Shown here: positions 4,293 to 45,309 of the stretch, one piece after another
Position numbering within the stretch: position 1 is the first letter of the stretch
Layout: every line of letters starts with the position of its first letter
Assembly: GCA_017513005.1 (NCBI GenBank)
Contig: JAFWDM010000087.1
Coordinates: forward strand, 1-48,014
DNA: 48,014 nucleotides
Direction of reading: 5' to 3'
From: Lachnospiraceae bacterium
GTDB taxonomy: Bacteria; Bacillota; Clostridia; Lachnospirales; Lachnospiraceae
The notes under the pieces: model-generated
What the model was told of the DNA's origin: nothing
The model's input: the letters and a program-made list of their open reading frames with translations, nothing else
Database searches by the model: none
Position numbers and translations under genes: made by a program

Positions 4293-7200
4293 TCAGTCCC
4301 TGGGCACTTCGACGAGATCGTAGCATTCTACGATATCATCGACCTGCATGGGGTCAAAGCCTTCAAATACAAGACCGCACTCGAAGCCCTCGCGGACTTC
4401 CTTCGCGTCATCCTTGAAGCGCTTGAGGGAAGCCAGTCTTCCTTCGTAGATCTGTTCGTCTCCTCTGCGGATACGGACCTTGCATCCGCGCCGCACGACA
4501 CCGTCGAGGACCATGGAACCGGCAATATTGCCGACACGGGATGCCTTGAACAGCATACGCACCTGGGCGTGTCCGATGACCCGCTCCTCGTAAACAGGGG
4601 CACGCATGCCCTTGAGCGCTGCCTCCACCGCATCGATGGCCTGGTAAATGACCTTGTACAGGCGGATGTCCACGCCTTCCTGGTCCGCCATGGACTTGGC
4701 GAGCATATCCGGACGGACGTTGAATCCGATGATGACCGCGTTGGAAGCGGTGGCCAGCGAGACGTCGGACTCTGTGATGTTGCCAACCGCCGCGTGGATG
4801 ACCTTGACGACGACCTCCTCGTTGGAAAGCTTGAGCAGGCTCTGGCGGAGCGCTTCGACGGAACCCTGTACGTCTGCCTTGAGGATGAGGTTGAACTCTT
4901 TGAGCGTACCCTCCTTCATCTGGCTGAACAGGTCGTCGAGGTTCATGCGCATTCTCGTCTCTTCGATGAGCTCCTCCTTGCGCTGGACCTTGTAGGTCTC
5001 GGCGTAGGACTTGGCAGTCTGGAGGTCCGGATGGGCGAGGAAGACCTCGCCTGCGCTGGGAACATCGGACAGGCCGAGGATCTCGACAGGATGCGACGGC
5101 TTCGCTTCTTTGACGCGCCTGCCCTTGTCGTCGATCATGGCCCTGACCTTACCGGAAGCCGCCCCCGCAGAGATAAAGTCTCCGATATGAAGGGTGCCCT
5201 TCTGGACCAGGACATTGGCGACGGGGCCGCGGCCCTTGTCGAGCATGGCCTCGAGAACCAGGCCCCTGGCCTTGCGGTCCGGGTTGGCCTTGAGCTCCAT
5301 GATATCCGCCGTCAGCAGGATCGTCTCGAGAAGGTCCTCGATTCCCTGGCCGGTCTTTGCGGATACCTCCACAAATTCGGTGGATCCGCCCCAGTCAGTG
5401 GGGATCAGCTCATATTCCGTCAGTTCCTGCTTGACGCGCTCGGGATTTGCGCCCTCTTTATCGATCTTGTTGATCGCGACCACGATCTCGACACCGGCTG
5501 CCTTGGCATGGTTGATCGCCTCGATGGTCTGCGGCATGACACCGTCGTCCGCCGCAACGACCAGGATCGCAATATCCGTGGAATTCGCGCCGCGCATACG
5601 CATGGCGGTAAAGGCCTCATGACCGGGTGTATCAAGGAAGGTGATGTCTCTGTCGTTAACTGTGACCATGTAGGCACCGATCGCCTGGGTGATGCCGCCC
5701 GCTTCCCTGCCGGTGACATTGGTGCTGCGGATCGCATCCAGAAGAGAGGTCTTACCGTGGTCGACGTGGCCCATGACGCAGATCACGGGCGGACGGGAGA
5801 CCATCGTGGCCTCATCCTCTTCGTCCTCGCGCAGGAGCTCTTCGATCACATCGACGACCTGCTCCTTCTCGCAGAGGATGTCATAACCGAGTGCGATCTC
5901 CTCTGCCTCTTCATAGCTCACTTCACTGTTCGGCGTCATGGCCTTGCCCTGCAGGAACAGCTTCTTGATGATCTCTGCAGGCTGCATATGCATGCGTTCC
6001 GCGAGTTCGCGGATGGAGATCTTCTCGGGAACGGAGATCGTTTTGATCTGTTCTTCAACGGGGACGGTCTCCTTCTTTTCAGGCCGGATAAAGCGCCCGC
6101 TTCTGTTCTTGCGGTTCTTCTCGTCCTCGCCGAAATTCTGGTCCTTTCTCGACCTGCGGTCCCTGTCCTGGAAGGATTTGCCGCGGCCCTGTGCGCCGCC
6201 CTTCGCGGGTGCATTGCCGCCTCTTCCGGGACCGCCCTGTCCGGGACGGGCACCTGCAGTGCGGGAATCTGCTCCCCTGCGCGCACCGCCCTGGCCGCGC
6301 GAATCCTGCGAGCGTCCGCCGCGTCCGGCGCCCCCGCCGCTTCTGGAGTCAGCGCCCTGACGGGGACCGCGGTCACCACGCCCTGCACCTGACTGGGAGG
6401 ATCCTGTACCGCGGCCGCCTGCGGCACCTCTGCCGGCGCCTGCGCCCTGTCTGGATCCTGCTCCGTCACGGGAACCGTGCTGCCTTCCGGTGCCTTCCGC
6501 CTTTGCGGGTTTCCCGGCCGCATCGCTGCCTGCCGCTGCGCCGCGGCCCTGTGCGCTGCCTTCCGTGGCAGTCTGCGCGCCGGCAGCTGCAGCGGTCTGC
6601 GCTGCCGCCTTGTCCTGAGCTCCCGCGGGCGCAGCCGAAGAAGCCTGCGCCTGCGCCGCAGGTGCTGCCGTCTGGGCTGCAGGTGCGGGACCGGTCCCGA
6701 CCTCGGCAGCTGCATTGGTCAGAGCCGCAGCTTCTTTCAGTGCCTCTGCCTCCGCTGCCTTCTTTGCGGGATCCGCTTTACGGGGCTGCTGGACCGGTTT
6801 ATGATAATCCACTTCCATCTGTGTCTGACGGATCGTGGGTTTGATCAGCTTATGGACAGGCTGCGCCTGGCTTCTGCCGCGTCCGAACGAGGAACCGCCC
6901 CGTCCGTTTGCACCGCGGTCACGGCTGCCGGATCCGGAGGCCCCGCTGCCGCCCCTTGCATCGCGGCGGTCTCTTCCCCTGCCGTCCCCGCCCTGGCGGG
7001 AACCGCCTCCGGGGCGATTGCCTCCGCGGGCGCCTCCGCCGCTGCCGCTGCGTCCGCTGCCGCCCGGGTTATAGGCCCCCGTGCCGCTCGAATAAGCACC
7101 GCGCTGGCCGCCCTGGTTATTGCCGCCGGTCACGATGATGATCTTTTTCTTCTTTACAGGCTTTTTGGCTTCCTCTGCAACTTTTTCCCCTTTGTTTTCC

Positions 7201-7412
7201 CCTGCAGCGCCTGTGCCCTTCTTCTCTTCTGTCTCTTTCCGTTTCGCTTCAAAATTGTCAGAAACCAACTTGACTGCGCCCTCCTCTAATGTTATATCCA
7301 TACTCCCGTCCGCTGCCCCTGCAGCGCTTCCTCTGCTCCGCAAAAACCCGAGGATCTCACTTGGGCTCGTGCCGTACTTTTTCGCGAGCTCACTGATTCT
7401 CATTTCCGCCAC
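4293..7412 (-). CDS. infB: Translation initiation factor IF-2
   Basis: GTPase that brings initiator tRNA to the 30S subunit. The N-terminal IF2_N motif is MRISELAKKYGTSPSEILGF. Then comes about 400 residues of low-complexity Gly/Arg/Ala/Gln-rich linker, a second IF2_N-like segment (ISIRELAERMHMQPAEIIKK) and the G domain. The G domain has GHVDHGKT (near 547), DTPGHEAF (near 593) and NKIDK (near 649). Domains II-IV follow, including VGNIAGSMVLDGVVRRG. The GTG at 7412 is chosen because AAAGGAGG precedes it by five bases; ATG at 7403 is the alternative. It overlaps ylxQ by 23 bp, implying coupled translation. At 1039 residues it is long for the family, all from the linker, which is GC-rich and repeat-like. 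Confidence 0.96.
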   Translation of the reverse strand: MAEMRISELAKKYGTSPSEILGFLRSRGSAAGAADGSMDITLEEGAVKLVSDNFEAKRKETEEKKGTGAAGENKGEKVAEEAKKPVKKKKIIIVTGGNNQGGQRGAYSSGTGAYNPGGSGRSGSGGGARGGNRPGGGSRQGGDGRGRDRRDARGGSGASGSGSRDRGANGRGGSSFGRGRSQAQPVHKLIKPTIRQTQMEVDYHKPVQQPRKADPAKKAAEAEALKEAAALTNAAAEVGTGPAPAAQTAAPAAQAQASSAAPAGAQDKAAAQTAAAAGAQTATEGSAQGRGAAAGSDAAGKPAKAEGTGRQHGSRDGAGSRQGAGAGRGAAGGRGTGSSQSGAGRGDRGPRQGADSRSGGGAGRGGRSQDSRGQGGARRGADSRTAGARPGQGGPGRGGNAPAKGGAQGRGKSFQDRDRRSRKDQNFGEDEKNRKNRSGRFIRPEKKETVPVEEQIKTISVPEKISIRELAERMHMQPAEIIKKLFLQGKAMTPNSEVSYEEAEEIALGYDILCEKEQVVDVIEELLREDEEDEATMVSRPPVICVMGHVDHGKTSLLDAIRSTNVTGREAGGITQAIGAYMVTVNDRDITFLDTPGHEAFTAMRMRGANSTDIAILVVAADDGVMPQTIEAINHAKAAGVEIVVAINKIDKEGANPERVKQELTEYELIPTDWGGSTEFVEVSAKTGQGIEDLLETILLTADIMELKANPDRKARGLVLEAMLDKGRGPVANVLVQKGTLHIGDFISAGAASGKVRAMIDDKGRRVKEAKPSHPVEILGLSDVPSAGEVFLAHPDLQTAKSYAETYKVQRKEELIEETRMRMNLDDLFSQMKEGTLKEFNLILKADVQGSVEALRQSLLKLSNEEVVVKVIHAAVGNITESDVSLATASNAVIIGFNVRPDMLAKSMADQEGVDIRLYKVIYQAIDAVEAALKGMRAPVYEERVIGHAQVRMLFKASRVGNIAGSMVLDGVVRRGCKVRIRRGDEQIYEGRLASLKRFKDDAKEVREGFECGLVFEGFDPMQVDDIVECYDLVEVPRD

Positions 7413-23118: not shown

Positions 23119-24483
23119 ATGGCAGGAAGATATCCGGATCGTTTCAATGACGACAGCATTCTCGCCCGCTATTTCGGACGCTCCGCAAACTACACGGACA
23201 TCCCGAATTACCTGTTTAATGAATATAATGTCAAAAAAGGACTGCGCAACGACGACGGCACAGGCGTCCGGATCGGACTGACGAGGATCTCGGATGTCAT
23301 CGGCTATACCAATGACGAAAAGGGAAATGTCATCCCCTGTGACGGCGACCTGCTCTACAGGGGCTACTCCATCCGCGACCTGCTGCAGAACCGGCAGGGC
23401 AACTGCGGCTTCGAGGAGACCTGTTTCCTGCTCCTGTTCGGCTATCTGCCGGAAAAGACGGAATTTGAGAATTTCAAGACCAGCCTCTCCATGCGCTACG
23501 ACCTGCCGGAGAGCTTTCTCGCGAACGAGCTTCTGCTCAAACCCGCGCGGAACCTCATGAACAAGCTCCAGTCCGCCGTCCTGTCGCTCTACAACTACGA
23601 CGACGCACCGGACGAGACCGACGTATATCAGAACCTGCTCAAAGGCATCAACCTCATCGCGAAATTCCCCGCCCTCGGCTGCTATGCCTACTACACGAAG
23701 GTGCACACCTTCGACCGGAGCTCCCTGATCATCCACTACCCCAGGCCGGAGCACTCCATCGCGGAAAACATCCTCTACATGCTGCGGCCGGACGGCCAGT
23801 TCACCTCCCACGAGGCCAACCTCCTCGACGCGATCCTGCTGATCCATGCGGACCACGGCGGCGGAAACAACTCCACCTTCACAAATGTCGTGGTGGGCTC
23901 CACCGGCACGGACATCTACTCCGCCCTGAGCGCCTCCATCGGCTCCCTGAAAGGACCCAAACACGGCGGCGCCAACATCTCCGTCTCCAGGATGATGACC
24001 CAGATCATCGGCGACATCGACTATACACCGGACAAGGACAGGATCCGGTCCATCATCAACCGCATCCTCGACAGGGACTACTTTGACCACAGCGGCCTCG
24101 TCTACGGCTTCGGCCATGCCGTCTACACCCTGAGCGACCCCCGCGCCGAACTCCTTCGCAAGCTCTGCCGCGACCTCGCCGAGGAAAAAGGCTGCATGTA
24201 CAAGTTCACCTTCTACAAACTCTTTGAGGACACCGTCAAGGAAGTCGTCCTCGAGAGAAAAGGCGAGATCATCCCCTCCAACGTGGACCTCTATTCCGGA
24301 CTCGCCTACAACATGCTCGGCATCCCCGAGGAACTCTATACCCCCCTCTTCGCGACCGCCCGCGTGGCCGGCTGGGTAGCCCACAACCTCGAGAACAAAC
24401 TCTACGACGGCCGCATCATGCGCCCCGCCACAAAATATGTGGGCGACAAACAGGAATACATCCCGATGAATGCCCGCAGATGA
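23119..24483 (+). CDS. gltA: Citrate synthase (citrate/2-methylcitrate synthase family)
   Basis: Condenses acetyl-CoA and oxaloacetate to citrate. The 454-residue protein has the family landmarks: LLYRGYSIRDLL near the N-terminal third; the catalytic-region histidines in LLIHADHGGGNNSTF and GPKHGGAN; VYGFGHAVYTLSDPRAELL; and the final domain with VDLYSGLAYNMLGIP. GAAAGGAGG five bases before ATG 23119 fixes the start; the upstream in-frame extension to 22948 is not family-like. It stands alone here with no aconitase or isocitrate dehydrogenase, but pyruvate carboxylase at 11048 would feed it oxaloacetate. Its TGA stop is the first triplet of a dispersed repeat. Confidence 0.93.
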   Translation: MAGRYPDRFNDDSILARYFGRSANYTDIPNYLFNEYNVKKGLRNDDGTGVRIGLTRISDVIGYTNDEKGNVIPCDGDLLYRGYSIRDLLQNRQGNCGFEETCFLLLFGYLPEKTEFENFKTSLSMRYDLPESFLANELLLKPARNLMNKLQSAVLSLYNYDDAPDETDVYQNLLKGINLIAKFPALGCYAYYTKVHTFDRSSLIIHYPRPEHSIAENILYMLRPDGQFTSHEANLLDAILLIHADHGGGNNSTFTNVVVGSTGTDIYSALSASIGSLKGPKHGGANISVSRMMTQIIGDIDYTPDKDRIRSIINRILDRDYFDHSGLVYGFGHAVYTLSDPRAELLRKLCRDLAEEKGCMYKFTFYKLFEDTVKEVVLERKGEIIPSNVDLYSGLAYNMLGIPEELYTPLFATARVAGWVAHNLENKLYDGRIMRPATKYVGDKQEYIPMNARR

Positions 24484-24508
24484 CAAAGGGGACGGTTCTT
24501 TTTGTCAC
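24481..24508 (+). repeat. Dispersed palindromic repeat, copy at the gltA stop
   Basis: TGACAAAGGGGACGGTTC followed by TTTTTGTCAC. The ends TGACAAA and TTTGTCA are inverted. The TGA is the gltA stop codon. A degenerate copy (GACAAAGGGAACGATTCTCC) lies at about 24554-24573. Confidence 0.9.
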
Positions 24509-24660
24509 ATTCATCTGCCTTTTCCCGATTCCCCTGTGTAAAGGCAGATATTCCGACAAAGGGAACGATTCTCCCGGCTGCAATGACCGATGTACAAAAA
24601 AGGGAACGTACAACAAATATAACAAAAACCGGGACATAGCTGCAGTTTATAACACAGATC
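24509..24660. other. Non-coding stretch after gltA
   Basis: No gene seen. It contains an inverted repeat TCTGCCTT ... AAGGCAGA (about 24514-24548), a degenerate copy of the dispersed repeat, and AT-rich sequence leading into the terminator hairpin. Confidence 0.5.
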
Positions 24661-24705
24661 AAACCCCCGGCAGGCGCCTGTTTTCTGAGGCCTGCCGGGG
24701 GTTTT
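24661..24705. terminator. Terminator downstream of gltA
   Basis: CCCCCGGCAGGC (24664-24675) pairs perfectly with GCCTGCCGGGGG (24690-24701) around a 14-base loop, followed by TTTT and preceded by AAA. Very stable; it ends gltA and could also serve the convergent TRAP operon. Confidence 0.85.
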
Positions 24706-24720
24706 AACATTTTATCATGA

Positions 24721-24905
24721 TTACCTGCGCAGACAGGCGGGATCCCACAGAAAATCCTTACCTGCACAAACAGGCGGGATCCAACAGAAGATCCTTACCT
24801 GCACAGACAGGCACGATCCAACAGAAGATTCTTACCTGCGCAGACAGGCACGATCCAACAGATGATTCTTACATGCACAAACAGGCGGGATCCCACAGAA
24901 CCCAC
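24721..24905. repeat. 37-bp tandem repeat, five copies, 3' of the TRAP operon
   Basis: Units starting TTACCTGC(A/G)CAGACAGGC and continuing GGGATCC(A/C)ACAGAAGATCC repeat every 37 bp from 24721; the last is partly degraded near 24905. Each unit contains CCTG...CAGG, able to form a small hairpin. The array lies between convergent gltA and the TRAP permease, after the shared terminator. Confidence 0.92.
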
Positions 24906-24960
24906 AGAAGTTCCATGGGAACTGCAGCAGCATTAAGTGTAAAGTTTGCGCAGAATCCGC

Positions 24961-24982
24961 GAATTCCGTCCCTTTTGTCACC
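24961..24982 (-). repeat. Dispersed repeat copy at the TRAP permease stop
   Basis: On the minus strand GGTGACAAAAGGGACGGAAT. The TGA is the stop codon of the TRAP permease and the remaining bases match the repeat core with one change. Confidence 0.75.
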
Positions 24983-27017
24983 TCTTGCGCTTCAAAAACT
25001 GAAGCGCACAGCCTGCCGCGATCAGGGCCAGACCGATGAGATCGGTCACAGCGCCCGGATAGATCATCATGAGGCCTCCCGCCGTGAGAAGAAGTCTGTC
25101 CACAGGGCCCATATTACAGAAGAGATAGCCCTCCAGGGCTGAAGCGACGCCGAAGATGCCGATCAGGGACGTCACGGCGATCAGGGCCACGCTCGCCGCA
25201 TCTGTCTCGATAAGCAGCATGGAGGGGCTGAAGCAGAAGACATAGGGAATGATAAAGGCCGCTATGGCGAGCTTCGTCGCGTTGAAAGCCGTCCGCATGG
25301 GGTTGGACTTTGCGATCGCGCTGCCTGCATAGGCAGCCAGGGCGACCGGCGGCGTGATGTCCGCCACGATCCCGAAATAAAAAACGAAAAAGTGGGCTGC
25401 CATGATGGGGACGCCCATGCGGGTCAGGATCGGCGCACAGGTGGCCGCCATAATGCAGTAGGTGGCCGTCGTGGGAACGCCCATACCCAGGACGATGCAG
25501 CAGAGCATGGTCAGAAAGAGCGCGATAAAGAGTCTGTTTCCGGCCACCGCCACGATGGCATTGATCATCTCGTTGGCAAGGCCGGTCATAGTGATCGTGC
25601 CGGAAATAATCCCCGCTACACCGCAGGCTGCGCCGACCGTGATCGTGCCCTTTCCGCCCGCCTCCAGGGAATCAAAAAACTTCCTGACCGTAAAGCAGTT
25701 GCCTGTGTCCTCTCCCGTGCCGATGACGGCGTCCTTGAGGGGGTTTGCAGCCCCTTCCTTTTTGCGGTCGCTGACTGCCCTCCTGTAGCTTCCGTCCACA
25801 ATGCCGTCGATGATGCCCACCGCGATCGCGGCCACGATCGAATAGGCCGCCGCCCTCTGCATGGTCATCATGTTGTTGGAGACCCAGATCACGAGCAGGA
25901 CCAGAGGCGTCAGGAGATAGATCCTGCGGACGAGCCGCCCGAATCTGGGAAGCTTTTCCGCGGGGATCCCGGTCAGACCGTATTTTTTTGCCTCCAGATG
26001 GACCGCGATGAAGATGCCCGTAAAGTACAGGATGGCCGGCAGAATGGCGCGCACCAGGATGTCCGAATAGGGCACGCCCATGATGTCCGCCATCAGGAAG
26101 GCCGCCGCGCCCATGATGGGCGGCATGATCTGTCCGCCGGTGGAAGCGGCCGCCTCTACCGCGCCCGCAAATTCCGCCTTGTAGCCGATATCCTTCATCA
26201 TGGGGATCGTGACCGATCCGGTCGTGACCGTGTTGCCGACAGAGGAGCCGCTGACCATGCCGCACAGGGCGGAGGAAATGACGGCTACCTTGGCAGGACC
26301 GCCCGCATAGCGCCCTGCCGCACAGTTTGCCATATTGATGAAGAAATCAGAGATGCCCGTCCTCTCCAGAAAGGCCCCGAATATAATGAAAACGACAATA
26401 TACTTGGAGCACACATTGACCGGCGTCGAAAGAATCCCGGTCTTGGCATAGAACAGGTTCCGCACCAGATAGCGGAGCCTTCCCCCGATGTCCGGATTCG
26501 TCAGCCCGTACACGATCGCATAGACGATGAAAAACATGGCAACAAAGAGGATCGGCCAGCCGACGCTCCGCCTCGTCACCTCCAAAAGGGCGATGACCCC
26601 GATAATGGCGATGAAGATCTGCGGCACGGTAAATCGCGTTCCCTGCTGGATGATCTGTTCCGCATGAAAGGCATAGTACAAAAAAGCGCCTGTGCCCAGC
26701 ACCATGCCCAGAATGTCATACCAGGGGATGTAATTTGCCTTCTGTTCTCCCTTTTTGGCGGGATAGGTCAGAAATCCCAGCAGTATGATCAGCCCCATAA
26801 AGGAGGTCAGACGGATCTCCTCCAGAAAGGTCGCAAACAGCGTCACCCAGATACAGAAGAGGGAAAAAGCGATCAGGACCACCTTGACGATCAGCGCGGG
26901 TTTTCCGGTCCATACGCGGACATTGGACTCCCTGTCGTATTTTCGCATGACCTCCTCGAGGTCCTCCTGCATCAGCTCATTTTCCCGCTCGTTTTCCTTT
27001 ACCTTACCATTGCTCAT
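24978..27017 (-). CDS. TRAP transporter permease, fused small and large subunits (TAXI type)
   Basis: Membrane component of a tripartite ATP-independent periplasmic-type transporter that uses an ion gradient. It is 679 residues with many hydrophobic segments. The first four helices form the DctQ-like small subunit (after VWTGKPALIVKVVLIAF). The rest is the DctM-like large subunit with CGMVSGSSVGNTVTTGSVTIPMM, ASTGGQIMPPIMGAAAFLMA and a second pseudo-repeat GMGVPTTATYCIMAA, DITPPVALAAYAGSAIA. Fused DctQM permeases pair with TAXI binding proteins, and that gene is directly upstream (27182-28147). ATG 27017 has AAGGAG at proper spacing. Substrate is unknown; TAXI systems have been linked to dicarboxylates such as glutamate or 2-oxoglutarate. 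Confidence 0.92.
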   Translation of the reverse strand: MSNGKVKENERENELMQEDLEEVMRKYDRESNVRVWTGKPALIVKVVLIAFSLFCIWVTLFATFLEEIRLTSFMGLIILLGFLTYPAKKGEQKANYIPWYDILGMVLGTGAFLYYAFHAEQIIQQGTRFTVPQIFIAIIGVIALLEVTRRSVGWPILFVAMFFIVYAIVYGLTNPDIGGRLRYLVRNLFYAKTGILSTPVNVCSKYIVVFIIFGAFLERTGISDFFINMANCAAGRYAGGPAKVAVISSALCGMVSGSSVGNTVTTGSVTIPMMKDIGYKAEFAGAVEAAASTGGQIMPPIMGAAAFLMADIMGVPYSDILVRAILPAILYFTGIFIAVHLEAKKYGLTGIPAEKLPRFGRLVRRIYLLTPLVLLVIWVSNNMMTMQRAAAYSIVAAIAVGIIDGIVDGSYRRAVSDRKKEGAANPLKDAVIGTGEDTGNCFTVRKFFDSLEAGGKGTITVGAACGVAGIISGTITMTGLANEMINAIVAVAGNRLFIALFLTMLCCIVLGMGVPTTATYCIMAATCAPILTRMGVPIMAAHFFVFYFGIVADITPPVALAAYAGSAIAKSNPMRTAFNATKLAIAAFIIPYVFCFSPSMLLIETDAASVALIAVTSLIGIFGVASALEGYLFCNMGPVDRLLLTAGGLMMIYPGAVTDLIGLALIAAGCALQFLKRKR

Positions 27018-27181
27018 GGCCTGTACTCCTTCTCTACAGTACATCTGCTCTCTATTCCATTCAGCAAATGGTCCAATCAGCAGACAATCCAATCAGCGTA
27101 TCTGTCAGCAGCCAAGGTTCCGCAGGCACCAGTGATCTATCTGCAGACCGCCCGGTCCCGCTGCGTTCTATGAACCCTTTT

Positions 27182-28147
27182 TTAATCTGCCGTTTCCACC
27201 TGCACCCCGTGCTCTGCAAAATACCGGGCCGCGCCGGCGTGGAAGGGAACAGCGATGCCGGAGGTCGCGTTTTCCACCGTGAGTTCCGCGCCCTTCGCGT
27301 TCTCCAGCGCGATCTCATCCGCATGGTCATAGATCGCCGCCGTCAGCTGGTAGACCACCTCCTCGTCCAGATCGGCATCCACCACCATGGTCGCCTTGAT
27401 CGTGATCGTCTCAACGGGCTCCGTCTGCCCGGGATAGGTATCCGCCGGGATCTGCAGGGGTGCATAATAGGGGCATATCCCCATGATTTTGTCTCGAAGC
27501 TCTCCTTCGATCGGAATCAGGAAGACACCGTTCGTCGTCGCCAGCTCCGTGATCGCCGATGTCGGCGCCCCCGCAACGATAAAGGCTGCATCGATCTGGC
27601 CGTCCTTCAGGGCTTCCTTGCTGTCGTCAAAGCTCTGGTACTGGGGCTTGATGTCATCGACCGTCAGTCCTGCCCCCTCCAGGACATCCATCGCATTGAA
27701 ATAAACGCCTGACCCGGGCGCACCGATCGAGACGCTCCGTCCCTTCAGGTCGCTCACGCTCTGAATATCCTTTTTCATCGTGATCAGCTGCACGGTCTCC
27801 GCATAGAGGGCGCCCATCACCCGGAAATCCCTGCAGGGCCCGTCCGTCTCAAAGGACTTGCTCCCCTCCCAGGCATAGGTCATGACGTCCGACTGGGTAA
27901 ACCCCATCTGGTAATCGCCGTCCCCGATACTCTGGATGTTGGCTTTCGAAGCCGCCGTAGAGACTGCAGTCACACTGTAACCCGTGTAATTTTTCATATA
28001 CTGGGCCAGTACGCCTCCAAAGGCATAATAGGTTCCTGCCGTTCCGCCGGTACCCATCATCATCCTCTCCCCGCCGCAGCCTGACAAAGCCAGTACGCAT
28101 ACTGTCAGCAGGATGCAAAGGAACGCTTTCCGGATTACTCTGTGCAT
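27182..28147 (-). CDS. TAXI-family TRAP substrate-binding lipoprotein
   Basis: Solute receptor for the adjacent TRAP permease. A 321-residue precursor with signal peptide and lipobox LALSGC, Cys24 being the predicted lipid anchor. The mature part begins MMMGTGGTAGTYYAFGG, the TAXI N-terminal hallmark, with GFTQSDVMTYAW, VSIGAPGSGVYFNA and DAAFIVAGAPTSAI further on. It is the first gene of a two-gene operon; the permease starts 164 bp downstream. AGCGGGAGGG precedes the start. Between gene and promoter are two copies of ACAGGAG five bases apart. No riboswitch was recognised. Confidence 0.93.
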   Translation of the reverse strand: MHRVIRKAFLCILLTVCVLALSGCGGERMMMGTGGTAGTYYAFGGVLAQYMKNYTGYSVTAVSTAASKANIQSIGDGDYQMGFTQSDVMTYAWEGSKSFETDGPCRDFRVMGALYAETVQLITMKKDIQSVSDLKGRSVSIGAPGSGVYFNAMDVLEGAGLTVDDIKPQYQSFDDSKEALKDGQIDAAFIVAGAPTSAITELATTNGVFLIPIEGELRDKIMGICPYYAPLQIPADTYPGQTEPVETITIKATMVVDADLDEEVVYQLTAAIYDHADEIALENAKGAELTVENATSGIAVPFHAGAARYFAEHGVQVETAD

Positions 28148-28282
28148 TTTTTATCCCTCCCGCTCATTTTTTAAACAGGGGCGCCTATTCCTGCAACGCT
28201 CCTGTATATACTCCTGTAAAAAAGTATATTAACATAGATTTGCGGTCCGGGCAAACGGCTGCAGCTGCAGATCACTTTTATC

Positions 28283-28311
28283 TTGTAACCGGCCCGTGTT
28301 TATATTAAAAT
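28283..28311 (+). promoter_or_regulatory. Promoter of the cytidylate-kinase-like gene
   Basis: TTGTAA (28283-28288), a 17-bp spacer and TAAAAT (28306-28311), about 60 bp upstream of the start codon. Between them and the start are AATTGTTACCAATTACAATT-like AT-rich sequences with partial inverted symmetry that might bind a repressor. Confidence 0.55.
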
Positions 28312-28371
28312 CGGCACAAGAACAATTGTTACCAATTACAATTACTATTACGATTATATTGGAGGAAAAAG

Positions 28372-29001
28372 ATGCCTGAGAAAGAAAACGATATGATTGC
28401 TGTAGAAAAATGTCCTGTGATCACGATCAGCAGGGAGTACGGTGCACTTGGAAGGACCCTGGCAGCCGTGCTCTCCGAGAGACTCGGCATCCCCTACTAC
28501 GACAAAGACTTCGTCACGAAGACAGCAGAGGAAAGCGGCTTTGCCGTCGAGGACATCGAACGGGAGGGCGAAAACCTCAGTGTCCCCGGCCGTGTGCTGG
28601 ACAGCATCCTGAACAGCGCAGTGAGCTACAGCAGCTCCCACGATTCGATCTTCCGGGCCCAGAAAAAGATCGTCCTGGATCTCGCTAAATCCCCCTGCAT
28701 CATCGTCGGCCGCTGCGCCGATCACATTCTCCGGGAGAACGGCGTGAAAGCATTCTGCATCTACCTGTATGCTTCCGTGCAGAACCGTCTGCAGCGCGCA
28801 CAGACCCTCGCGGAGAACGACGACATGAACCTGGAGAAATACATCGAAAAACGGGACAAGCTGCGCAGGACCTACTACAAAAAATACACCGGCAGCGATA
28901 TGGGGAACGCGTCCAACTACAACATCTGCCTGGATACCGGCCGGATCCCCGTCACGGTCTGCGCGGATATCATCATCGACATCCTCAGCCGGGAAAGCTG
29001 A
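28372..29001 (+). CDS. Cytidylate-kinase-like family protein
   Basis: A 209-residue P-loop kinase relative. CPVITISREYGALGRTLAAVLSERLGIPYYDKDFV is the glycine-rich nucleotide-binding start seen in this family, where the loop departs from classical GxxGxGKS. IIVGRCADHIL and KRDKLRRTYYKKYTG follow, the latter a lid-type Arg/Lys segment. Family members are widespread in Clostridia, and most have no tested substrate, so the true phosphate acceptor is uncertain. GGAGG lies six bases before the ATG. It is divergent from the TAXI gene and precedes sodA by about 95 bp, with its own promoter. Confidence 0.8.
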   Translation: MPEKENDMIAVEKCPVITISREYGALGRTLAAVLSERLGIPYYDKDFVTKTAEESGFAVEDIEREGENLSVPGRVLDSILNSAVSYSSSHDSIFRAQKKIVLDLAKSPCIIVGRCADHILRENGVKAFCIYLYASVQNRLQRAQTLAENDDMNLEKYIEKRDKLRRTYYKKYTGSDMGNASNYNICLDTGRIPVTVCADIIIDILSRES

Positions 29002-29008
29002 GCCTGCG

Positions 29009-29027
29009 GTGACAAAGGGTGACAAAC
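29009..29027 (+). repeat. Partial copy of the dispersed repeat after the kinase-like gene
   Basis: GTGACAAAGGGTGACAAAC begins seven bases past the TGA of the kinase-like gene and matches the first eleven bases of the repeat core. It lies where a sodA promoter would be expected; ATTGCAT and TATACT/TATACA elements follow at 29034-29056. Confidence 0.55.
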
Positions 29028-29095
29028 ATAATTGCATTGTTTGTGGTATACTTATACACAGCTATATCATACATTTCCTGAAAGGAGGAACTTCT

Positions 29096-29713
29096 ATGTT
29101 TACACAGATTGCACTGCCCTACGCCTATGATGCCCTGGAACCGGTGATCGACACATTGACCGTCGAGACGCACTACGGCAAACACCACGCCACCTATACC
29201 AAAAACTTTAACGACTTCGCCGAAAAAGCCGGCGTCGCGGACAAGAGCGTCGAAGAAGTGCTCGCCACACTCGATACCGTCGAGGATCCGGCGCTCCGCA
29301 AAGCCCTTCGCAACAACGGCGGCGGCTTCTATAACCATAACCTCTATTTTTCGACGCTCTCTCCCAATGCAAAGCACGCCCCCGAAGGTGCTCTGCTGGA
29401 AAAGATCAATGCCACCTTCGGCAGCCTTGACGCTGTGATCGAGAAGATCTCCGCCGCAGCCGCCGGACAGTTCGGCTCCGGCTGGTCCTGGCTCAGCGCC
29501 AACCCCGCCGGCGACCTCATGGTCTCCGCAAGCCCCAACCAGGACAACCCCATCAGTGAGGGCACCGGCTTTGTACCCATCCTCGCAGTTGACGTGTGGG
29601 AACACGCCTACTATCTCAAGTACAGGAACCTCCGCCCGGATTACATCAAAGCCCTCTTCGGCATCATCGACTGGAAAAAAGTCGAGGAGCTCTATGCGAC
29701 AGTCACCACCTGA
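29096..29713 (+). CDS. sodA: Superoxide dismutase (Mn/Fe family)
   Basis: Converts superoxide to oxygen and hydrogen peroxide in the cytoplasm. A 205-residue protein with all four metal ligands: His26 (in THYGKHH), His81 (YNHNLYF), Asp166 and His170 (DVWEHAYYLKY). The residues that usually separate Mn from Fe enzymes are Gly77 and Gln149 (SPNQDNP), which favour Mn or cambialistic use. ATG 29096 follows AAAGGAGG. It is notable in a presumed strict anaerobe and probably protects against transient oxygen. It has its own short upstream region, possibly with TATACT as -10. Confidence 0.95.
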   Translation: MFTQIALPYAYDALEPVIDTLTVETHYGKHHATYTKNFNDFAEKAGVADKSVEEVLATLDTVEDPALRKALRNNGGGFYNHNLYFSTLSPNAKHAPEGALLEKINATFGSLDAVIEKISAAAAGQFGSGWSWLSANPAGDLMVSASPNQDNPISEGTGFVPILAVDVWEHAYYLKYRNLRPDYIKALFGIIDWKKVEELYATVTT

Positions 29714-29749
29714 CCGTCGAAAACCGCAAGAGCCGGCGGAAACCGCAAG

Positions 29750-29779
29750 AGCCGGGGCAGCAATGCCGCTGCCCCGGCT
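29750..29779 (+). terminator. Hairpin downstream of sodA
   Basis: AGCCGGGGCAGC pairs with GCTGCCCCGGCT around a six-base loop. It lacks a T tract but is very stable. The segment before it holds two copies of AAACCGCAAGAGCCGG. Confidence 0.6.
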
Positions 29780-29794
29780 CATGTGCCAAAGGGT

Positions 29795-29926
29795 GTGACA
29801 AAGGGGACGGTTCTTATTGTCACTCATTTGGTGTGACAATAAGAACCGTCCCCTTTGTCACCTATTGTCACTCTTTTGGTGTGACAAGAAGAACCGTCCC
29901 CTCTGTCACCGTCCCCTCTGTCACCC
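29795..29926. repeat. Cluster of dispersed palindromic repeats between sodA and the acyltransferase
   Basis: Three full 29-bp units: 29795-29823 (plus orientation, GTGACAAAGGGGACGG core), 29833-29861 and 29881-29909 (inverted, AAGAACCGTCCCC core), plus a 15-bp partial duplication of the unit end to about 29926. Spacers are themselves palindromic (TTGTCAC/GTGTGACAA). Every unit starts GTGACA and ends TGTCAC. The minus-strand acyltransferase stop (29868) is inside this cluster. Confidence 0.9.
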
Positions 29927-31106
29927 CGGAACCACGTGCTTTCGCACCCCAAAGCCCGATAGCTTCATGCAGAATAACAGCAAACAGAAATGTCCCTAGA
30001 TAGATCAGAAAACACTGCGTCCACTGCCCGCTCTTCGCAAACAGGTGCGGGACCAGCATGCGCAGAAGCGTCTGCGACACATACATGGGCAGGCTGACCG
30101 CTCCCAGCCAGGCATACACGGGATGCCGGAAGACGCCCGCATGCTGCAGAGCCCCCTCGCCGCTGAAAAGGATCGACACGGCGGCAAAAAGCAAGCCTGT
30201 GACAGGAAGGGCATAAAAACCGCTCATTTCGCTGCACATGTAAGCAATGGAAAGCATAAGGCTCAGGACCGCCGCAGCTGTAAGCAGCAGGCGGCCCCGG
30301 CAGGTCCGGATCCGCCCCTGCAGGAAACGGCTGCACTCAAACGCGGCCGCCCCCAGGGAAATCTCTGCAAAAGCCCGCACATTGGTCTTGTAGGTGATAT
30401 AAAACCAGTCCTGGATATCCCCCAGCGAGCCGGTCTTTGCGATGATCGCCCACAAAAGGAGACATCCGAGTACCGGCCCCGCCAGATGCGTATAGAAGCG
30501 ATAAAAACGCCTGCACAGGGGGTAGGCGAACACCAGCGCGAGCAGCATGGAACTCAGATACCAGGTGCAGCCGATAAAGGGCTTTCCCAGTCCCGTGCGC
30601 TGCAGAAATAAAAGGGACGGCAGCCGCAGGGCGAAATACTCGATCGTCAGGGCACGGTTCGTCACCAGCCGCACCACTGGCGTCAGCGCACAGGCTGTCA
30701 GGTAATACGGCAGGATCGGGCGTGCCTTGTGCCACACGAACTGCAGAGTCTCCTCCGCAAGCGCAGGCAGCGTCCCGCGCCCGGACAGCCCCGGATGACA
30801 GGAACCCGGCTGACAGGCCCCCGCATGAAAGGGACCCGGATGACCGGACCCCGGCCGACAGGAACCCGGCCTGCCTGACCTGCACAGCTTTCCATATACT
30901 GATTTTGCCATCAGACAGCCGGTCACGAGAAAGAAAAACTCGACGGCGATGTTGCCGTGTTTAAAAAAGGTCACAGGAGCCCCGAAGAACTCCCCGACGA
31001 TCTTCTGCTGGTCCCACAGATCCAGATTGATGTGAAAAAAAATAATGATCGTTGTGAATAAAAACCGAAGCAGCTCCACGCTGCCGTTCCTTTGTGATTT
31101 TGTCAT
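29868..31106 (-). CDS. Acyltransferase 3 family membrane protein
   Basis: An integral membrane O-acyltransferase of the OafA/acyltransferase-3 type, which typically modify surface polysaccharides or lipids. 412 residues with about ten hydrophobic segments. The N-terminal ELLRFLFTTIIIFFHINLD holds the family's conserved His25, and the middle shows the usual WYLSSMLLALV pattern. AAAAGGA precedes the ATG. Two oddities: residues about 72-110 are a Pro/Gly/Cys/His-rich repeat (PGSCHPG-like) inside the first cytoplasmic loop; and the last 20 residues (GVTEGTVTEGTVLLVTPKE) are translated from the dispersed palindromic repeat. The natural C-terminus was probably near the preceding ...GLWGAK. Confidence 0.82.
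   Translation of the reverse strand: MTKSQRNGSVELLRFLFTTIIIFFHINLDLWDQQKIVGEFFGAPVTFFKHGNIAVEFFFLVTGCLMAKSVYGKLCRSGRPGSCRPGSGHPGPFHAGACQPGSCHPGLSGRGTLPALAEETLQFVWHKARPILPYYLTACALTPVVRLVTNRALTIEYFALRLPSLLFLQRTGLGKPFIGCTWYLSSMLLALVFAYPLCRRFYRFYTHLAGPVLGCLLLWAIIAKTGSLGDIQDWFYITYKTNVRAFAEISLGAAAFECSRFLQGRIRTCRGRLLLTAAAVLSLMLSIAYMCSEMSGFYALPVTGLLFAAVSILFSGEGALQHAGVFRHPVYAWLGAVSLPMYVSQTLLRMLVPHLFAKSGQWTQCFLIYLGTFLFAVILHEAIGLWGAKARGSGVTEGTVTEGTVLLVTPKE
30778..30895. repeat. Degenerate repeats inside the acyltransferase gene
   Basis: GACAGGAACCCGG- and GGATGACCGGACCCCGG-like units of about 15 bp recur six or more times in frame (5 codons each), giving the Pro-Gly-Cys-His-rich loop. Confidence 0.7.
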
Positions 31107-44397: not shown

Positions 44398-45309
44398 TCA
44401 GGACTCCTCCGTAAAGAGCTCTTCGACCTTGTCCGGTGCCTTCTCGAACTTCTCCTTGATCTCTTCCACAGCCTCAGCGGCCTGGTCCGCAGCGGCATCC
44501 TTTGCTTCTTCCGCAGCATCCGCAGCTGCTTCCTTAGCTTCTTCTGCGGCATCCGCAACAGCTTCCTTAGCTTCTTCTGCAGCATCCGCAGCCGCTTCCT
44601 TTACCTCTTCTGCAGCATCCTTAGCCTCTTCCGCTGTCTCTGCCAGCTCCTCCGCGACCGCTTCATCGACGGCTTCCGCCTCTGCTTCGTCCAGGGCCGG
44701 TGCGGCTTCTCCATCATCCGCCGCGGCAGCCGCGCTATCCTCTGCAGCTGCCTCTTCAGGTGCTGCAGCCTCTTCTGCGCCGTCTGCTTCCTCCGCCGCG
44801 AACACGTCCTCTTCCTCATCGGACTCTGCCAGGATATCCTTGACCTTGACAGCTCCATCCGCGAACGCGTCCTTTACCTTGCCGGCAGTCTGTCCCACGA
44901 CTTCGAGTACGGTCTCGCCCTTGGGCCCGATCGCTTCCTTGATGCGGGTATAGGCTACGGCAGAGCCCGCCTTGATCGTCGTGTAGGTCCTGGAGGCAGC
45001 GGCCTTTACCTTCGCGGCAGTCTCCTCCATATCATCCTTCTGGTCGTCACCGGCGGCTTCCTCTTCCTCGTCGGCAGTCTCCGGAGCAGCGGCTTTCGCC
45101 TTCTCATCCTCAGTCTCCGGAGCAGCGCTTTTTACTGTTTCCTCTGCCGCGACGGGTTCTGCCTCGTCGTCCGGGTCCTCATCGTCAAAAATATCGTCAT
45201 CCACATCGTACTCGGAATCCTTTGCATTCTCTTCCAGATAATAGTAGACGGTCGCAGCCGCTACGCCCAGTACTGTAGCACCTAAGAATAATCTGCCCAA
45301 TCTGCTCAT
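44398..45309 (-). CDS. Membrane-anchored Ala/Glu-rich helical protein
   Basis: A 303-residue protein with one N-terminal membrane segment (LGRLFLGATVLGVAAATVYYYL) and a long charged body. From about residue 190 on it is almost wholly Ala, Glu, Asp and Lys. It includes AAEEAKEAxADAAEEAKEA repeats of about 11 residues, encoded by 33-bp DNA repeats (plus-strand TTCCTTAGCTTCTTCTGC). Such 11-mers resemble apolipoprotein or LEA-type amphipathic helices. Function is unknown; a coat, stress or spacer protein is possible. ATG 45309 follows GGAGG at 8 bases. An upstream extension to 45378 lacks support. Confidence 0.75.
   Translation of the reverse strand: MSRLGRLFLGATVLGVAAATVYYYLEENAKDSEYDVDDDIFDDEDPDDEAEPVAAEETVKSAAPETEDEKAKAAAPETADEEEEAAGDDQKDDMEETAAKVKAAASRTYTTIKAGSAVAYTRIKEAIGPKGETVLEVVGQTAGKVKDAFADGAVKVKDILAESDEEEDVFAAEEADGAEEAAAPEEAAAEDSAAAAADDGEAAPALDEAEAEAVDEAVAEELAETAEEAKDAAEEVKEAAADAAEEAKEAVADAAEEAKEAAADAAEEAKDAAADQAAEAVEEIKEKFEKAPDKVEELFTEES

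Follow-up and report, generated by a model that had tools for sequence, protein, structure and literature searches.

The REP-associated tyrosine transposase (RAYT; REP, repetitive extragenic palindromic sequence) genes of the TIRYT elements are flanked by terminal inverted repeats (TIRs) with the sequence GGGGWSAS (Di Nocera 2013, PMC3733652). The REPs that carry a GTAG tag reportedly often supply TAG stops to flanking open reading frames (PMC3733652), and lie close to gene 3' ends in two genomes shown. For TnpAREP subclass 2.1, corresponding to RAYT group 1, a survey from 2018 reported no REP-like sequences nearby (PMC6006769). These statements, like the comparisons that close this text, refer to the available parts of the sources compared (PMC3733652, PMC6006769, PMC8266576, PMC3116915, PMC2817692 and PMC8049555). 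Here we describe a dispersed hairpin repeat found in a stretch of 48,014 nucleotides (hereafter, the window) from a Lachnospiraceae bacterium (assembly GCA_017513005.1, contig JAFWDM010000087.1, positions 1 to 48,014). A first-pass annotation of the window had proposed a dispersed palindromic repeat that supplies stop codons to genes. With a probability of about 0.8, we consider these repeats to be REPIN-like (REP doublet forming a hairpin) non-autonomous mobile elements of the REP/RAYT kind, mobilised by a RAYT resembling group 1/subclass 2.1.

The repeat proved to be real and dispersed. In the draft genome (2.68 Mb in 130 contigs, 97.4% complete), the 16-base core GTGACAAAGGGGACGG was found at 80 places with at most two mismatches, as compared with 6 for the reversed pattern, and the window itself holds 6 places at up to three mismatches versus 0.41 expected in shuffles. 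The units around the core matches of the genome numbered 78 in 56 clusters, of which 38 were single units and 15 were doubles, 11 of the latter being head-to-head. A similar listing from metagenome-assembled genomes (MAGs) gave 61 single-unit and 29 head-to-head clusters among 114; these and the MAG placement statistics below refer to 80 loci (L106–L185) out of at least 103. An early impression that the arms of pairs had been homogenised was dropped, as the similarity within and between pairs was 0.922 and 0.910 in the own genome, and 0.907 and 0.859, somewhat higher within pairs, in the MAG loci.

The repeat is distributed very unevenly among genomes. At most one mismatch was allowed in a comparison with 60 sampled genomes of the same genus, and this genome had 56 core matches, while each of the others had 0–6 and many had none; 16 of the 61 genomes, including this one, had any match at all. 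The reversed pattern gave 0–1 per genome, and therefore a single core match means little. A stricter 27-base pattern was detected in four of 299 genomes of the family, namely this one (60 matches), G133 (22), G253 (6) and G149 (3). Among the matches listed from public contigs, most came from MAGs labelled Lachnospiraceae or Clostridia, many of them from the rumen, and three records were labelled Bacteroidota (L160, L161 and L176) and one Coriobacteriales (L130). These four may reflect contamination or transfer. The array length also varies between related genomes: the syntenic loci L137 (3172–3313), L152 (570) and L201 (4202) hold four, two and one tandem units, respectively.

The unit was defined by listing the core places with their flanks, as a 29-base imperfect palindrome, RTGACAAAGGGGACGGTTCTTTTTGTCAY. 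It starts with RTGAC, with TGA as its bases 2–4, and the units share the apex core GGGACGGTTC, around which the stem varies in a compensating fashion. The top strand can form a hairpin of up to 13 pairs including G·T wobbles. As RNA with five tail bases, this strand folds into a 13-pair hairpin with G·U wobbles and a CGG apex at −13.7 kcal/mol, while the other strand reaches −6.6 kcal/mol, mainly through the lower stem. In an earlier covariation count, 71 of the 134 distinct units had been chosen by hand and mostly broken ones dropped, and the count was later redone on all 134. By the later count, 88.0% of the cells were paired versus a shuffled mean of 85.1%, and 71 cells with double changes were found versus 38.6; none of 500 shuffles was as high in either measure, where unit positions 11–18 are fixed by the search itself, which requires an exact GGACGGTT. 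Slid registers of the unit gave 49–63% pairing and 3–40 double-change cells. Covariation is established in part. Membership in the GTAG REPs or the CGTC REPs was considered and rejected, because the tags are absent or misplaced; from the profiles and the RNA fold, no unpaired CGTC stands at the unit end, and the CGTC in the complement of GGGACGG sits at the apex. A scan of the window with Rfam at the gathering threshold returned tRNA only and no repeat family.

The placement of the repeat relative to gene ends was tabulated and compared with random intergenic placement of the same clusters. The set from the own genome consisted of 43 stretches and the window, about 437 kb of the 2.68 Mb, picked for holding core matches; it contains 96 core places at up to three mismatches, a few of which are clearly not repeats. 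Gene calls came from a simple hexamer-based finder, which for the MAGs was trained on the pooled loci. In 10 of the 56 own clusters, the TGA of the unit coincides exactly with the stop codon of a gene, versus a mean of 0.25 and a maximum of 3 in 2000 random trials. Cluster edges within −4 to 15 bases of a 3' end numbered 26 versus 4.85 in the null (maximum 12; 0 of 2000 trials as high), while the same interval at 5' ends held 3 versus 4.95 and was not enriched. The called genes of this set stop with TGA in 215 cases, TAA in 97 and TAG in 25. In the MAG loci, 12 clusters lie at −4 and 14 at +1, versus 0.53 and 0.48 expected (0 of 1000 trials as high). Here, orthologous insertions in different MAGs (L109/L171, L151/L177 and L136/L178) were counted separately, and the independent counts after merging are about 11 and 13, respectively. 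Of the 14 clusters at +1, 12 read TAA, T and then the unit. The MAG clusters near 3' ends numbered 51 versus 9.9 expected (0 of 1000 as high), and those near 5' ends 14 versus 11.1, which is not an enrichment. The bias toward 3' ends and the exact stop overlap that had been proposed from the window are thus far beyond chance in both sets.

The orientation of single units was also biased. Within 30 bases of a 3' end, they share the strand of the gene in 16 of 18 own cases and 25 of 34 MAG cases, and near 5' ends they mostly lie on the opposite strand (7 of 9 and 15 of 18, respectively). Overlaps of more than 10 bases with a unit were seen for just four of the called own genes (the acyltransferase-like gene of the window and genes in L044, L049 and L067). 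The claim that every copy lies at a 3' end or just beyond it did not hold genome-wide: of 109 cluster faces in the own set, 63 look toward a 3' end and 46 toward a 5' end, and the excess lies close to the 3' ends. The 3'-end bias is strong but not universal, and many copies lie elsewhere. Single units were also seen 9–27 bases upstream of gene starts, mostly on the opposite strand (L037 at 4794, L050 at 4277, L051 at 1341, L059 at 4603, L074 at 4346 and others), and several of them share similar longer 3' flanks.

The stop positions were compared with those of relatives for several genes that end on a unit. In the window, the full 29-base unit ATGACAAAGGGGACGGTTCTTTTTGTCAC at 24480–24508 (+) provides with its TGA, at 24481–24483, the stop of the putative citrate synthase gene gltA (23119–24483, +; named in the first-pass annotation), just as had been reported there. 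The last residue of GltA is the same in all of the eight nearest same-genus relatives (at least 85% identity); of the 28 relatives whose end could be read, 19 lack one residue and one has two more. The last residue is also the same for an M16-type peptidase in 10 of 10 same-genus relatives, and for ybeY in 8 of 10 relatives with a readable end (the others being 2 and 11 residues longer), while the end of preA varies among relatives. The names preA, ybeY and M16-type peptidase are putative, read from sequence without a family search, as are those of the genes at the L170 junction described below. The stop position in gltA, the M16-type peptidase and ybeY is thus the old one, matching relatives without the unit. 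As for the codon itself, eight of 10 relatives have TGA and two have TAA there in the M16-type peptidase, and in ybeY seven of 10 have TGA and three have TAA. Since relatives use both, the codon may be the host's or the element's.

The putative TRAP permease gene (24978–27017, −; also a first-pass name) behaves differently. It ends on the TGA at 24978–24980 (complement) of a copy that had been placed at 24961–24982; the stop assignment stands, but the copy comprises no more than a 5' half unit, GTGACAAAAGGGACGG followed by AATTC, at 24966–24981 (−). Five of six relatives are 2–4 residues longer and the sixth is 19 residues longer, so that a slight truncation of the permease is possible. Of the two courses that had been offered, insertion at stop codons or replacement of gene ends, insertion at an existing stop fits gltA, the M16-type peptidase and ybeY; the TRAP permease is shorter than its relatives.

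Empty counterparts of occupied places, which the first-pass annotation had suggested looking for at orthologous loci, do exist in relatives. At site A (L109 at about 7107–7255 and L171, compared with the empty L185), a 140-base cluster of three units has been added 7 bases after the stop codon. This site and the three that follow come from comparisons between MAGs. A unit pair stands one base past the stop at site C, and at site D, with the frame read by eye, the empty relative has GAC GTA TAA and the filled ones have GAC GTG TGA followed by the unit. The last residues at site B, also read by eye, seem changed. A general target duplication was not supported in the own loci, where shared flank words occurred at 0.036 versus a null mean of 0.026, without excess. 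Furthermore, units of other subfamilies were seen by eye shortly past the same stop of the M16-type peptidase in three of 10 relatives (L252, L253 and L255), and shortly after the gltA stop in two or three of 28 (L210, L211 and, less clearly, L231). This suggests independent insertions at the same gene ends.

The link to RAYTs comes from relatives. Fifteen same-genus genomes with core matches were examined, in which 17 longer RAYT-like frames were listed and the loci of 14 were analysed; 7 of the 14 are flanked at either end, at a distance of up to 450 bases, by GGGACGGTTC-type units. In all of the 103 listed MAG loci, four RAYTs were found, three of which are bracketed by units, the fourth being cut by the end of its locus. 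In total, 10 of the 18 RAYTs are flanked at either end by hairpin units, where the shared core is partly a matter of construction since the flank test demands GGGACGGTTC or GGGACGGTC. An inverted-repeat search without this demand recovered the core in six of the seven bracketed same-genus RAYTs and not in L084; the L095 RAYT was found in this analysis by its cores only, its inverted repeats being unsearched. The stems of the flanking units differ between genes (GTGTCA, GAGTCA, TCACACA, GAGACA and GTGACA) and the core is common to them. On a tree of the RAYTs, the core-flanked label needs two changes versus 5.8 in shuffles. L161, labelled Prevotellaceae, has two exact copies of the consensus unit of this genome beside its RAYT, which stands on a very long branch, and contamination is possible. 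At L089 (1129–1192), ACCTCTGGGGT words recur to the left and right of a RAYT that lacks the GGGACGG core; they may represent a further repeat family linked to RAYTs.

The RAYT proteins exceeded the cut-off of Y1_Tnp in 10 of 10 cases. Their best NCBIfam family was REP_Tyr_transpos, over the cut-off in one of eight, and their only relative in the PDB at E ≤ 0.001 was TnpArep (4er8, E = 0.0005). HxH at 60/62 and the presumed catalytic Tyr at 119 are invariant in seven of seven, and the C-terminal helix-turn-helix-like region gave weak matches. The draft genome itself contains two short Y1 transposases with open frames, which were judged from sequence to be of the IS200/IS605 type. One junction shows different states of a RAYT locus: in L170 and L190 a RAYT stands between two units, in L139 there remains a short stretch resembling the 3' end of the RAYT, together with the downstream unit, and L172 has only a decayed pair. 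These remnants indicate that units can outlive a RAYT gene, and the loss of a RAYT with the units left behind is a plausible history for this genome, although the gene may simply be missing from the draft assembly.

Under the REP/RAYT reading, an HUH-Y1 single-strand transposase, that is, a RAYT with a C-terminal helix-turn-helix-like region, would recognise the hairpin and copy the unit in trans, as relatives lead us to suppose here; the population in this genome would be an orphan after RAYT loss, or its RAYT gene would lie within an assembly gap. Copies would pile up at the 3' ends of genes, in many cases on the stop codon itself. As the unit starts with RTGAC, its TGA can replace or coincide with the host stop and leave the protein the same. 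The enzyme may prefer stop-like targets, and purifying selection against other positions must presumably also contribute. IS200/IS605 enzymes pick short targets via guide sequences. Mobilisation in trans by a REP-type Y1 transposase, as had been proposed from the window, gains from the bracketed RAYTs in same-genus and other genomes. Several observations weigh against this reading. No RAYT was found in the draft genome by a search with a Pfam model, which does find the RAYTs of relatives, and by one with a RAYT profile, whose empty answer alone shows little. Seven of the 14 same-genus RAYTs have no flanking core, and for the MAG RAYTs it was their units that led to the genes. Single units outnumber pairs (38 of 56 clusters), unlike typical REPINs, the arms of pairs in the own genome are hardly more alike than those of different pairs, and the GTAG tetranucleotide is absent from the unit ends in profiles of the unit and its flanks. 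With DNA parameters, which are relevant because the transposase would act on a single strand, the two strands of the unit fold nearly equally (−5.0 and −4.7 kcal/mol), and pairs with double changes (n = 4, among the 134 distinct units) are not above shuffles. Moreover, at the clean empty site A the cluster has TGAGCC on either side, which a Y1 enzyme would not be expected to leave, and the value for shared flank words in the listed MAG clusters is as high as the null maximum (0.088, versus a null mean of 0.041). Relatives also often stop with TAA where the unit now stands, as do five of the eight nearest for gltA, which speaks against taking a native TGA as the target.

Could function rather than insertion keep the units at 3' ends, as transcription terminators or 3'-UTR (untranslated region) stabilisers? 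The stronger RNA fold of the top strand (−13.7 versus −6.6 kcal/mol) and the location of units near 3' ends mostly on the strand of the gene are what a terminator would show, and 27 of 61 MAG singles are followed, over the next 8 bases, by at least five T. However, such a T-run follows only 5 of 37 own singles, gltA retains by eye a GC-rich hairpin with a T-run downstream of its unit, orthologs manage without the unit, and none of the units was called in a terminator scan of 24400–30100. RAYT genes, too, are bracketed by hairpins of this kind, and we regard the explanation as improbable. It is less probable still that the IS200/IS605-type transposases of the genome move the elements in place of a RAYT. 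Two such Y1 enzymes with open frames are indeed present, but the exact core is absent from both of their 3.4-kb loci (L031 and L032), their contigs (C121 and C31) have no core place at up to two mismatches, and in relatives the units bracket RAYTs. The two TnpAs were rejected as mobilisers for the lack of the core in their loci.

Within the REP/RAYT reading, it must be asked how the exact stop overlap arose. Selection alone may be enough, with random insertion, purging of copies inside genes, and insertions in the last codons ending at the TGA of the unit in one of three frames. We give this a serious chance, somewhat short of even. It agrees with the lack of enrichment at 5' ends, with the TRAP permease being shorter than its relatives by 2–4 residues (five of six) or 19 (the sixth), with the seemingly changed last residues at site B, and with relatives having either TAA or TGA where the unit's stop now stands. 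On the other hand, gltA, the M16-type peptidase and ybeY are not shortened against most relatives, the site D protein seems by eye to end on the same residue whether empty or filled, and overlaps with a unit that exceed 10 bases are limited to four of the called own genes. Alternatively, a group 1 RAYT system in Lachnospiraceae might home on stop codons, TGA at −4 and TAA-T at +1, so that the element would enter without altering proteins and subfamilies with different stems would seem to strike the same gene ends independently. We hold this view only tentatively and consider it doubtful, its odds being lowered because five of the eight nearest gltA relatives have TAA at the place of the unit's TGA, and three have TGA.

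The window as a whole contains four units in full, a half unit, a partial copy of 16 bases and arms without a core. The last of these, at 29009–29026 (+), had been counted as a copy. It consists of two 5' arms, GTGACAAAGG and GTGACAAA, without the GGGACGG core and without a match even at three mismatches, and the assignment was withdrawn. Three copies reported at 29795–29909 are all full units: a head-to-head, REPIN-like pair with its left arm at 29795–29823 (+) and its right arm at 29833–29861 (−), and a third unit at 29881–29909 (−), with a 16-base partial copy in tandem at 29909–29924 (−). The pair (29795–29861) folds as DNA into one long hairpin of −35.2 kcal/mol versus a shuffled mean of −6.8. 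The three copies had been described as lying between genes, which overlooked that the frame of the acyltransferase-like gene (29868–31106, −; a putative, first-pass name) reads through the partial copy and the third unit. Its C-terminal tail is thus encoded by the repeat array (...GSGVTEGTVTEGTVLLVTPKE*), and its stop is another TGAC at 29868–29870. Eight relatives of this protein were found, with unrelated tails of 17–35 residues past the aligned part, so that the tail encoded by the repeats falls where the protein varies naturally. Downstream of the gltA unit, a GC-rich hairpin followed by TTTT at 24664–24705 (+) is by eye a likely gltA terminator, which the terminator scan did not call. Two other tandem repeats are present: a 37-base unit (4.9 copies, 88% match) at 24721–24900 between gltA and the TRAP permease gene, and a 33-base unit (4.5 copies, 85% match) at 44486–44632 within the called gene 44398–45309.

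With units placed exactly at stop codons, one can ask directly whether RAYTs choose their targets or whether insertions are only filtered by selection, and the subfamilies, alike in apex core and unlike in stem, are a natural experiment on the co-evolution of enzyme and repeat. If true, stop homing would be a built-in safe-harbour strategy. Literature searches, which covered few subscription papers, brought up no apparent prior description of the repeat or of a Lachnospiraceae RAYT, and Lachnospiraceae are unnamed in the available parts of the REP/RAYT survey texts compared, PMC3733652 included. In common with the GTAG REPs and REPINs of group 2/3 RAYTs, the repeat has short palindromes, inverted pairs, a unit-bracketed RAYT and a 3'-end location (PMC3116915, PMC2817692, PMC8266576); unlike them, it has no GTAG tag, a different RAYT group and more singles than pairs, and the stop that it offers is TGA. 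As supply of stops and 3'-end location are already known for the GTAG REPs, this behaviour is known in kind. The nearest relatives, as far as the available text goes, are the TIRYT repeats, in which inverted repeats with a GGGGA-type core likewise stand on both sides of a tyrosine transposase gene and some TIRs form dispersed families and dimers, as here (PMC3733652). They differ in that the core of our units, GGGGACGG, breaks GGGGWSAS at the seventh base (the repeats of the flanked RAYTs carry the GGGGACGG-type core, not GGGGWSAS), and in that our unit forms a hairpin whose stem covaries and whose copies gather at stop codons. With TnpAREP subclass 2.1, the RAYTs share the Y1 domain and a C-terminal helix-turn-helix-like region, the latter by weak matches, and differ in the hairpin units on both sides of 10 of the 18 (PMC6006769). 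In these sources we find no precedent for the sequence family or its RAYT group, for stems that compensate around a shared apex, or for such sharp peaks at −4 and +1, and dispersed covarying hairpins are here linked to a RAYT group that had been reported without REP-like sequences nearby (PMC6006769).

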